Shown here: one piece after another, positions 35,428-37,288 of the stretch
How positions within the stretch are numbered: position 1 is the stretch's first letter
Layout of the letters: every line of letters begins with the position of its first letter
DNA from: an uncultured Pelagibacteraceae bacterium
GTDB taxonomy: Bacteria > Pseudomonadota > Alphaproteobacteria > Pelagibacterales > Pelagibacteraceae
NCBI GenBank assembly: GCA_902566775.1
Contig: CACFKF010000001.1
Location: forward strand, 1-59,166
Direction: 5' to 3'
DNA: 59,166 nt
The notes under the pieces: generated by a model
What the model was told of the DNA's origin: nothing
What the model saw: the letters and a program-made list of their open reading frames with translations, nothing else
Databases searched by the model: none
Program-made: the position numbers and the translations under genes

Positions 35428-35982
35428 ATGAAAGAAGTAAGTTTCATACAAATGAAAGATGGAACAAAAGAAGATTATCTTTTGTTAAACAAGCACGAAA
35501 AAAAATTTATTGAAAGTACTGCAGATCGTATAATAAAATTTATGAGTGGCTTAACTAAAACTTTAGAAGGCTACAGAATAAATAGATTGGAACATTCTTT
35601 ACAAACTGCAACACGAGCTTTAAATGATAAAGCTGATGAAGAAATGATTGTAGCTGCTTTATTACACGATATAGGAGATGAGTTAGCTCCATTAAATCAT
35701 TCAGAATATGCTGCTGCAGTTCTTAAACCTTATGTTAACGAAAAAACATTATGGATTGTAGAAAAACACGGTGAGTTTCAAATGTATTACTATGCACATC
35801 ATTTAGATGGAAATAAAAATCAAAGAGATAAATATAAAGGACATAAATACTATAAGGATACTGTTGATTTTTGTGAAAATTGGGATCAAAAATCTTTTGA
35901 CCCTAATTTTAAATCTTTGCCTTTAAAAGAATTTGAGCCCTTTGTAAAAAAAATATTTTCTAGGAAGCCATATTCAGTTTAA
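35428..35982 (+). CDS. HD-domain metalloprotein, function unassigned
   Basis: A 184-residue single-domain HD protein. The metal motif is HDIGD in DEEMIVAALLHDIGDELAP; an earlier histidine lies in INRLEHSLQTATRA, and later ones in NHSEYAAAV and EKHGEFQMYYYAHH. This spacing resembles PhnZ/MIOX-like HD oxygenases, which share a LEHSLQ/HDIG layout, but the glycine-glutamate of PhnZ before the first histidine reads Gly-Tyr here. Either a phosphohydrolase or an oxygenase is possible. It starts five bases after purF and shares TTAA with the convergent bhmT-like stop. Confidence 0.7.
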   Translation: MKEVSFIQMKDGTKEDYLLLNKHEKKFIESTADRIIKFMSGLTKTLEGYRINRLEHSLQTATRALNDKADEEMIVAALLHDIGDELAPLNHSEYAAAVLKPYVNEKTLWIVEKHGEFQMYYYAHHLDGNKNQRDKYKGHKYYKDTVDFCENWDQKSFDPNFKSLPLKEFEPFVKKIFSRKPYSV

Positions 35983-37040
35983 GCCTTGCTCTTATATTCT
36001 TTTTGATGTTCTGGAATTCTTTCATGTGTTCCAAATAAAAAGTGATTAGCCATGTTTTCTCTATATTTGCTCGCTGGTACTTTCAATCCAACTGCTTCTG
36101 CGACTTCCCTGATTAACATTGGGTTTGCACCACAACAGACACCCAGATAGTTTACTCCAAGATCAAATGATTCTTTTGCAAATTTACCTATCTCATACCT
36201 ATTACATTGCATTGGGTCCAATGCTGTAGGAAAAGGAGTCTTGTGTTTTGTGTGACAAGTACATCCATTATTATCTGGCAAATTAAAAAAGGTAGGATTT
36301 GCTTTTGTTGTTCTATAATTGATCGGTAAAGCAGCAACATGGCATTTTAAAGCTTTTCTAATTTCTTTAATATAAGGCATCATTGTATTAGGACCTCTAA
36401 AACAATTCATACCTACTACATCTCCACCTCGTTGCTCTAACTCTTTACAAGTGTCTACTATTGAGACACCGTCTCTCATAATATTTTCTCCCATAGGCGC
36501 AATCGTTATAACAGCGGGAAGTCCTGATTGTTTCATTATTTTTAAAGCTGTATATGCTTCTTCTGCATAATAAAAAGTTTCACCAATTAAAATATCTGCC
36601 CCCTCATCTATTGCCCATCCAACCATTTCAGAAAACATTTTTTCAACTTCTTTATTTTGACTAGTGTCTTTATGGTTCCAAATATTTGAGTTAGATATAT
36701 TGCCAGCCATTAAATTAGGTTCAGTTCCTTTTGGTGTATTGACAGCAACTTTTTTAGCAATTTTTAAAGCTGATCTATTTAATGGTTCTAAAAGATCTTC
36801 TTTTCCAATCACACGCATTTTTTCTCTATGTCCATTATAAGTAAATGCCTGAACAATATCAGACCCTGCGTGTTGAAAATCCTTATGCAGATTTTCTAAT
36901 GCTTCTGGATGATCTAAAGAAACCATCGGAACAAATTCTCCTGAGGACATGTATCCCCTTTTTTCAATTTCAAAAAGAAAACCTTCTGCACAAATAAGAG
37001 GACCAGCATCAAGTCTCTCTTTTAAACTTTTTTTTGTCAT
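35979..37040 (-). CDS. bhmT: Betaine-homocysteine S-methyltransferase-like protein
   Basis: A homocysteine S-methyltransferase of 353 residues that would use glycine betaine or a related donor to remake methionine. Zinc-binding cysteines are in VGMNCFRGP and LGVCCGANP; the N terminus has AGPLICAEGFLFEIEKRGY. I place the start at ATG 37040 because GGAG lies eight bases upstream; an in-frame ATG at 37076 would translate the leader hairpin. Control by the SAM-II/SAM-V leader at 37041-37278 fits a methionine-cycle enzyme and matches what is known for Pelagibacter bhmT. The donor itself cannot be read from sequence. Confidence 0.9.
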   Translation of the reverse strand: MTKKSLKERLDAGPLICAEGFLFEIEKRGYMSSGEFVPMVSLDHPEALENLHKDFQHAGSDIVQAFTYNGHREKMRVIGKEDLLEPLNRSALKIAKKVAVNTPKGTEPNLMAGNISNSNIWNHKDTSQNKEVEKMFSEMVGWAIDEGADILIGETFYYAEEAYTALKIMKQSGLPAVITIAPMGENIMRDGVSIVDTCKELEQRGGDVVGMNCFRGPNTMMPYIKEIRKALKCHVAALPINYRTTKANPTFFNLPDNNGCTCHTKHKTPFPTALDPMQCNRYEIGKFAKESFDLGVNYLGVCCGANPMLIREVAEAVGLKVPASKYRENMANHFLFGTHERIPEHQKEYKSKA

Positions 37041-37042
37041 TT

Positions 37043-37113
37043 TTTTCTCCAATATTAATGGAGAAAAGGAGCTCATTATTTAAAGGAAAATAAATGGAGC
37101 TCTTCTTTTCTCC
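37043..37113 (-). promoter_or_regulatory. Alternative hairpins controlling the bhmT ribosome binding site
   Basis: On the minus strand GGAGAAAAG (37113-37105), CTTTTCTCC (37068-37060) and GGAGAAAA (37050-37043, the Shine-Dalgarno of ATG 37040) compete. The middle element can pair over nine bases with the first, extended by GAGCTC (37102-37097 with 37074-37069), or over eight bases with the Shine-Dalgarno. The first element begins inside the SAM-V pseudoknot. SAM binding should therefore free the middle element to hide the ribosome binding site. The pairings are seen; the switching is inferred. Confidence 0.75.
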
Positions 37114-37163
37114 TTTTTAGTGCTTTAGCTTATGCTGGGTGCACAATAAGGTTCAAATACCCG
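37112..37163 (-). promoter_or_regulatory. SAM-V riboswitch aptamer
   Basis: The minus-strand sequence has the SAM-V core GCTAAAGCAC and an H-type pseudoknot: GGGT (37162-37159) pairs with ACCC (37140-37137), and GTGC (37144-37141) with GCAC (37123-37120). CCTT (37151-37148) and AAGG (37115-37112) extend the second helix around the A-rich strand. This class senses S-adenosylmethionine and was described from marine bacteria including Pelagibacter, in tandem with SAM-II upstream of methionine-cycle genes. It lies 72 bases before the bhmT start. Confidence 0.87.
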
Positions 37164-37185
37164 GTTTTTAAATGAGAAATGATTC

Positions 37186-37215
37186 AAAAAAAAACCACCT
37201 GCTAAAGAGGTGGTT
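37186..37215 (-). terminator. Rho-independent terminator controlled by SAM-II
   Basis: AACCACCT (37215-37208), a seven-base loop, and AGGTGGTT (37200-37193) form an eight-base-pair stem that runs into a T tract ending at 37186. It starts ten bases after the SAM-II core. The loop and 3' arm (TTTAGCAGG, 37206-37198) can instead pair with CCTGCTAAA of the aptamer, giving an antiterminator. Confidence 0.9.
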
Positions 37216-37225
37216 CATTAGAAGC

Positions 37226-37278
37226 ATCTTTTTAGCAGGATTTTTTAGCGCCCCGCAAGTTGATATAAATCAGCGCTG
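37226..37278 (-). promoter_or_regulatory. SAM-II riboswitch aptamer
   Basis: The minus strand carries the SAM-II signature AGCGCTGATTTA, later GGCGCT, and GCTAAAAAG. P1 is AGCGC (37277-37273) with GCGCT (37251-37247). P2 is GCGGG (37256-37252) with CCTGC (37239-37235), giving the expected H-type pseudoknot. This is an S-adenosylmethionine-binding RNA common in alphaproteobacteria. It begins about four bases after the predicted transcription start and is followed by a terminator, so it should control elongation. Confidence 0.92.
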
Positions 37279-37288
37279 ATTGAAAGAT

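Follow-up and report, generated by a model that had tools for sequence, protein, structure and literature searches.

Introduction

SAM-V riboswitches (Rfam RF01826) are described, in the passages of PMC6061858, PMC5069961 and PMC9481103 that deal with their output, as governing access to a ribosome site within or adjoining the aptamer. The output given in PMC6061858 is occlusion of the Shine-Dalgarno (SD) sequence by helix P2a, with SAM binding reported for a bhmT SAM-V RNA, and the text of PMC2704228 on the motif places it within about ten nucleotides of the start codon. The closest described system is the tandem SAM-II/SAM-V leader of bhmT in 'Ca. P. ubique'; in the sections of PMC2704228, PMC9481103 and PMC11508383 on this leader we found no mention of a relay between aptamer and ribosome site. 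Anti-anti-SD platforms are an established kind and were given that name for the E. coli btuB cobalamin riboswitch, which is presented in PMC11162775 as an OFF switch whose anti-SD pairs with either the SD or an anti-anti-SD.

Here, we analyzed a 59,166-nucleotide stretch of DNA (the window) from an uncultured Pelagibacteraceae bacterium, which has the same tandem arrangement and the same gene. As in btuB, the window would be an OFF switch; unlike btuB, it has another aptamer and ligand, and its anti-anti-SD would be the aptamer's terminal GGAG, which serves as the SD in leaders of the direct type.

The bhmT Leader and Its Elements

The aptamer belongs to SAM-V by its covariance model score (Table 1) and is the one SAM-V match found in this genome of about 79% completeness. 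The downstream gene is called bhmT after usage in the SAR11 literature. With published SAM-V riboswitches the window shares the aptamer match, the CC:GG pairing of P2a and the control of a methionine gene in SAR11. Its output is unlike the SD occlusion by P2a set out in PMC6061858: the GGAG of SAM-V stands 73 nt upstream of the bhmT start, rather than within about ten, and is therefore too distant to be the bhmT ribosome site.

An earlier note on this DNA, made from its letters, had placed a tail (SD1), a middle element (anti-SD) and a true ribosome site (SD2) on the minus strand, and all three were found exactly there (Table 1), with a nine-base loop between the last two. It had also paired the GG of the tail with an upstream CC, and by our mapping this CC does sit where P2a, as modelled in the relevant part of PMC6061858, needs its partners. 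The note's proposal that translation is controlled through an anti-anti-SD relay, rather than by direct masking, is supported by this spacing and by the second SD before the start, and gains further support from the folding predictions below.

Table 1. Features of the bhmT leader in the window, listed 5′ to 3′ on the minus strand.
Feature	Position	Strand	Basis
SAM-II-like aptamer, first half of tandem	37211..37286	(-)	Rfam RF00521, 21.5 bits, under gathering 36
Terminator-like stem ACCACC/GGTGGT, then nine T	37186..37214	(-)	Sequence reading; similar stem and T-run in tandem leaders of relatives
SAM-V aptamer	37107..37171	(-)	Rfam RF01826, 75 bits, gathering 41
CC of helix P2a, partner of GG 37113-37112	37150..37151	(-)	Mapping from the P2a model in PMC6061858
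Element 1 (tail, SD1) GGAGAAAAG, 3′ end of SAM-V, proposed anti-anti-SD	37105..37113	(-)	Sequence
GAGCTC, upper stem of 1:3 hairpin, 5′ arm	37097..37102	(-)	Sequence and folding
GAGCTC, upper stem of 1:3 hairpin, 3′ arm	37069..37074	(-)	Sequence and folding
Element 3 (middle) CTTTTCTCC, anti-SD, pairs with element 1 or element 4	37060..37068	(-)	Sequence, conservation
Element 4 (SD2) GGAGAAAA, bhmT SD	37043..37050	(-)	Sequence, conservation
bhmT, 353 aa, homocysteine S-methyltransferase family PF02574, ATG 37040-37038	35979..37040	(-)	Frame, family match

The stretch 37171-37010 folds more stably than expected (z = -3.9), and the hairpin of elements 1 and 3 is very stable by itself (z = -5.1). 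Across the window and its relatives, hairpins from SD1 to the anti-SD scored z < -2 in every one of 49 distinct cases (median -4.3). The longest Watson-Crick match was equalled in fewer than 5% of dinucleotide shuffles of the spacer in 21/37 leaders for SD1 and 24/37 for SD2, and complementarity by itself appears less decisive than fold stability as evidence beyond chance.

Two candidates were set aside. An ATG at 37076 is in frame with bhmT; it falls within the hairpin and has no SD nearby, and relatives keep the ATG that follows SD2. Translation from this ATG would have spoken against the relay according to the earlier note, and conservation places the start after SD2 instead. Sub-threshold Rfam matches over the hairpin, to microRNA, snoRNA and plastid families, were dismissed.

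Proposed Mechanism

We propose, with a probability of about 0.78, that SAM-V governs bhmT translation by way of an anti-anti-SD relay, acting as a SAM-driven OFF switch. Without SAM, the tail would pair with the middle element in a long hairpin, and the true ribosome site before the ATG at 37040 would be open. With SAM, P2a would claim the two Gs at the start of the tail. This would release the CC of the middle element to pair with the GG of the ribosome site, from where the helix could migrate into a hairpin that hides this site. The elements, their conservation and their complementarity can be read from the sequence, and the start site from its conservation. The change in SD2 accessibility is a prediction of the folding model, and both the role of SAM as the driver in living cells and the sequence of folding steps during transcription are our inference.

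The induction of bhmT on sulfur limitation in HTCC1062, as reported in PMC5069961, is counted for the relay. A point against it is that P2a consists of two base pairs only, and our confidence is slightly lowered because the shuffle control for the helix of anti-SD and SD2 (see below) is weak.

The combination of an anti-anti-SD platform with SAM-V, having the direct-type SD as switching strand, is new as far as the literature was searched. No description of a relay for SAM-V was found in the SAM-V, Pelagibacter, bhmT and SAR11 literature searched, a scope that does not extend to Poiata et al. 2009. The relay, if correct, would mean that in many leaders of an abundant lineage of the ocean the decision to translate bhmT passes through more steps than simple covering of the SD.

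bhmT Leaders of Related Genomes

Relatives of BhmT were collected from the window's genus (399 genomes, 29 matches with an identity of at least 75%, including the window's) and from a named collection, with the best 80 of 252 used. Together these searches gave 109 leaders of genes with at least 60% BhmT identity, of which 84, the window included, were distinct in their last 200 nt. In this set, with the named collection represented by its best 80 of 252, the distance from GGAG to start is bimodal: 38 direct leaders have 7-14 nt and 37 relay-type leaders have 68-80 nt, all of the latter with a second SD. The remaining nine comprise three with a longer ORF between SAM-V and bhmT, five without a match to the SAM-V pattern and one at a contig end. 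These classes include assignments made by hand: the script had returned 38 far, 37 direct, 6 without SAM-V and 3 without SD, and L071 was moved to direct, L045 (contig end) to truncated relay, and L095, L130 and L135 to the small-ORF class.

A later search of the family (397 genomes, 57 matches at 1e-150 or better) yielded 46 leaders that were read, 27 of them repeats and 19 new, and five more that were already in the set; the other six matches were left out. The new leaders comprise 15 that are relay-spaced, one direct, one small-ORF and two without the SAM-V pattern. This brings the relay-spaced leaders to 52 (37 plus 15, with 12 of the 15 being close relatives from genus g7).

Loss of the elements in relatives would, in the earlier note, have counted against a relay. 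They are kept in the 37 relay-type leaders, which come from the window's genus or from named records mostly labelled Pelagibacteraceae, and they recur in genus g7 (12 leaders) and in g12 (one leader), where the hairpin differs in sequence. The CC of P2a is kept in 51/52 relay-spaced and 34/37 direct leaders.

Among the 56 best-scoring SAM-V loci, the 45 metY and three mmuM leaders were all classified as direct, with an SD-like end 8-14 nt from the start; five other loci precede bhmT and three were unclassified. In this sample, the relay layout was seen only before bhmT. Ordinary direct masking, in which ribosomes bind bhmT at the SAM-V GGAG itself, the general assumption for SAM-V, fits 38 of the 84 bhmT leaders and 48 of the 48 classified metY and mmuM leaders. 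As an account of the window it is extremely unlikely, given the 73-nt spacing and a separate SD before a conserved bhmT start; moreover, the bhmT frame of HTCC1062 carries a TGA that overlaps the AUG next to SAM-V. The relay would be one of several outputs of bhmT SAM-V, with 38/84 leaders apparently using the ordinary direct design.

On a BhmT protein tree, 10 changes between direct and relay are required, or 11 for relay against all other rows. The histories of leader and gene seem to disagree, perhaps via recombination, and the protein tree was left out of the covariation analysis. In these leaders nature has combined one aptamer with different outputs, which makes them useful material for studying the evolution of riboswitch platforms.

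A few loci lie apart from these classes. In L029, a tail and an anti-SD hairpin are present at and after the SAM-V match (1501-1566), with neither SD2 nor bhmT; the next gene (1623-2285) is convergent and HAD-like by its first residues, and the locus looks like an orphan leader left after loss of bhmT. A second BhmT-like family has 45-51% identity, and a second BhmT-like protein, 48% identical, is encoded outside the window in the same genome (G000 contig C1, 79485-80504). A scan of viral contigs for BhmT confirmed no relative.

Pairing and Covariation

In the relay leaders, the middle element is complementary at nearly every position both to the tail and to SD2. The two helices were tallied on joined segments of fixed length, with 24 distinct rows among the 37 leaders; the anti-SD positions had been picked by complementarity, three of them by hand. 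In the tail/anti helix, 97.7% of cells are paired and 5/9 pairs are changed on both sides across the 24 rows, with 0/500 shuffles as high. For the anti/SD2 helix, the share of paired cells is 93.1% in the 24 rows (3/500 shuffles as high) and the covariation score was equalled by 4/500 shuffles; two-sided change is found in 2/9 pairs, a number reached by 181/500 shuffles, and the number of pair types was reached by 487/500. Both helices have more cells paired than every slide by 1-3 columns, which is partly expected as the positions were picked by complementarity. The earlier note's claim that the middle element can pair with either partner is borne out by these tallies. Covariation at the elements, which it proposed as a check, is clearer for the tail/anti helix than for anti/SD2, and the changes at the switching pairs amount to few independent events.

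The changes can be followed at single pairs. Pair 7 of the tail/anti helix is A-T in 23/37 leaders and G-C in 9/37; the corresponding pair with SD2 is A-T in 26/37 and G-C in 8/37; and the pair flanking SD2 is T-A in 27/37 and A-T in 7/37. Eight leaders have G at position 7 in both tail and SD2, and C in the middle element, so that all three elements have changed together; in seven of the eight, the flanking pair is also swapped from T-A to A-T. In genus g7, the anti/SD2 helix is kept as GGAGAGA/TCTCTCC with a different upper stem, GATGAAATC/GATTTCATC, and L212 has yet another upper stem. On the leader tree, few changes are needed at pair 7 (four in the anti-SD, five in the tail and one in SD2), and a tree-aware test of pairs had too few events for significance. 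Pairing with SD2 is poor in L051, L052 and L138. RNAalifold found no consensus structure on a MAFFT alignment of the 37 leaders, in which MAFFT had misregistered the anti-SD in several rows. Concerted changes are seen in only a few lineages and are weaker for the anti/SD2 helix. On sequence grounds, we consider the case for the tail/anti hairpin strong and that for the anti/SD2 helix good.

The stability of the 1:3 hairpin would also suit a role mainly in mRNA stability or termination, with the match to SD2 as a by-product. This is very unlikely: no T-run follows the hairpin in the window, and the changes on the SD2 side (pair 7 and the flanking pair), like the GGAGAGA/TCTCTCC of g7, keep the pairing with SD2.

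A C-rich motif at the hairpin tip (about 37090-37082 in the window) recurs even where the stem has diverged. Its presence as CCC, CCTC or TCCT in 45/49 distinct hairpins, against 36.8 in shuffled spacers, is a weak enrichment on which we make no claim.

Predicted Folding

The SAM state was mimicked in silico by holding the two tail Gs that P2a takes, in a model that omits the pseudoknot, Mg2+ and co-transcriptional folding. With the GG free, the window folds best into the long hairpin, which leaves SD2 open. When the GG is held, the GAGCTC hairpin is retained and SD2 becomes covered by TTTTCTCCA/TGGAGAAAA, the fold energy passing from -36.3 to -34.0 kcal/mol at 20 °C and the predicted openness of SD2 from 0.26 to 0.0001 (0.31 to 0.00007 in a shorter stretch). 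The earlier note had a hairpin extended by GAGCTC opening the ribosome site in the absence of SAM. The hairpin and the open SD2 are indeed predicted; the GAGCTC upper stem, however, is predicted to be paired in both states, and the lower stem alone would switch. By sequence and in silico folding, the anti-SD can pair with the SD or with the segment linked to the aptamer, each pairing excluding the other, as in an anti-anti-SD platform.

The same effect is predicted widely. Holding the GG lowers SD2 openness more than 2-fold in 35/37 leaders (all except L054 and L131), with a median of 10^3.6 (about 4000-fold); when other spacer dinucleotides are held, the median is close to 10^0 and the 95th percentile is 10^2.7. 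The GG exceeds every other dinucleotide of the spacer in 22/37 leaders and is matched by some other in 15/37. Among the relay-spaced leaders of the later family search, which were not used in building the model, 15/15 gave a drop of more than 10-fold, 12 of them being the close relatives from g7. In many leaders SD2 is predicted to be mostly closed even with the GG free (median openness 0.04, n = 37); there, folding order during transcription would have to keep SD2 open.

Upstream Open Reading Frames

Translational coupling would place the switch differently: SAM-V would mask SD1, SD1 would drive a short upstream ORF, and its ribosomes would unfold the hairpin at SD2 before re-initiating at bhmT. 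An ATG lies 5-11 nt past the SD1 GGAG in 22/52 relay-spaced leaders, including HTCC1062 and all 12 from g7; outside g7 and g12 it is found in 9/39 leaders, against 4.4% of mononucleotide-shuffled spacers. The resulting ORFs end 4-26 nt beyond the first base of the bhmT ATG in 21/22 cases, none in the bhmT frame; the remaining one (L108) stops before bhmT, which speaks against coupling there. Leaders with such an ORF are predicted to have a less open SD2 when the GG is free (median 0.008, n = 22) than those without such a start (0.26, n = 27). The Mann-Whitney p of 0.0002 for this difference is inflated by near-copies; without g7, g12 and L196 (10 vs 26 leaders) it is 0.012. Longer ORFs of 44-48 codons directly after SD1, in L095, L130, L135 and L168, also fit coupling. 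Against it, no ATG, GTG or TTG is found 3-13 nt past the SD1 GGAG in 26/37 relay leaders, the window among them, and in the CTTCTTCTCC subtype (eight leaders with GGAGAAG or GGAGGAG as SD2) the ATG is replaced by ATA or GTA in four.

We consider coupling unlikely overall. The window has no start near SD1 opening an ORF that reaches the gene start, and the relay alone is the better account of it because this start codon is missing. To us the ORF-bearing leaders represent a second design, where translating the short ORF may help to open SD2. In some relatives, HTCC1062 among them, coupling may add to the relay or replace it.

Short ORFs past the SAM-V GGAG that overlap bhmT in another frame were observed in L193 (HTCC1062), L056, L057, L059, L124 and L200-L211, and their peptides are alike within g7 (MKS...RFHLSPV...). 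The 44-48 codon ORFs of L095, L130, L135 and L168 end at or near the bhmT start (with an ATGA overlap in L168) and form a third layout. A short ORF with an AUGA overlap, comparable to those of L168, L201, L205 and L209, is the route by which the M. tuberculosis ppe2 B12 riboswitch acts, according to the part of PMC11260477 on its leader; aptamer and ligand are different there, and unlike ppe2 the window has no such ORF.

The HTCC1062 Leader

The leader of 'Ca. P. ubique' HTCC1062 (L193) has the layout of the window and all three relay elements, with AAGAGGAAAA as SD2. Residue 2 of the BhmT match maps to 1127289 (-), in agreement with the intergenic region 1127293-1127553 given in Table 1 of PMC2704228. 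Three primers printed in PMC11508383 match this leader at the printed spacing, and position 177 falls on the last base of GGAGAAAAGAGGCCTATG. The ATG that ends GGAGAAAAGAGGCCTATG is 11 nt past the GGAG and out of frame with bhmT, and it is overlapped by a TGA of the bhmT frame. The 177-nt construct of PMC11508383, its end taken from the stated length, seems to stop short of the anti-SD and SD2. If the relay holds, the part that decides translation lay beyond the end of the fragment used in at least one structural study of the P. ubique bhmT RNA.

For SAR11 as a whole, we lean slightly toward a picture in which one aptamer class serves at least three outputs of bhmT translation, namely direct masking, a relay in which the former SD has become the switching strand, and a short overlapping ORF, repeatedly exchanged among related genomes. 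In this picture the SD and AUG next to SAM-V in HTCC1062 would belong to a 23-codon overlapping ORF, so that the RNA used in vitro would have lacked the true platform.

The Upstream SAM-II-like Unit

The terminator-like stem and its nine T lie between the SAM-II-like match and SAM-V in the window. This upstream SAM-II/terminator unit may add a transcriptional layer, as already proposed for such tandems. No Rfam SAM-II match at E 0.05 or better was found in 12 SAM-V loci. Among L002-L019, metY leaders carry a SAM-II-like sequence (GCCGATTTGATCCTATTGCGGGC...GCTAAAAAGGA) 5′ of SAM-V, without an evident terminator. Finally, two bhmT leaders from genus g5 of the family (L198 and L199) have no SAM-V pattern and consist of only a SAM-II-like element and a terminator-like stem, with the SD directly after the T-run.
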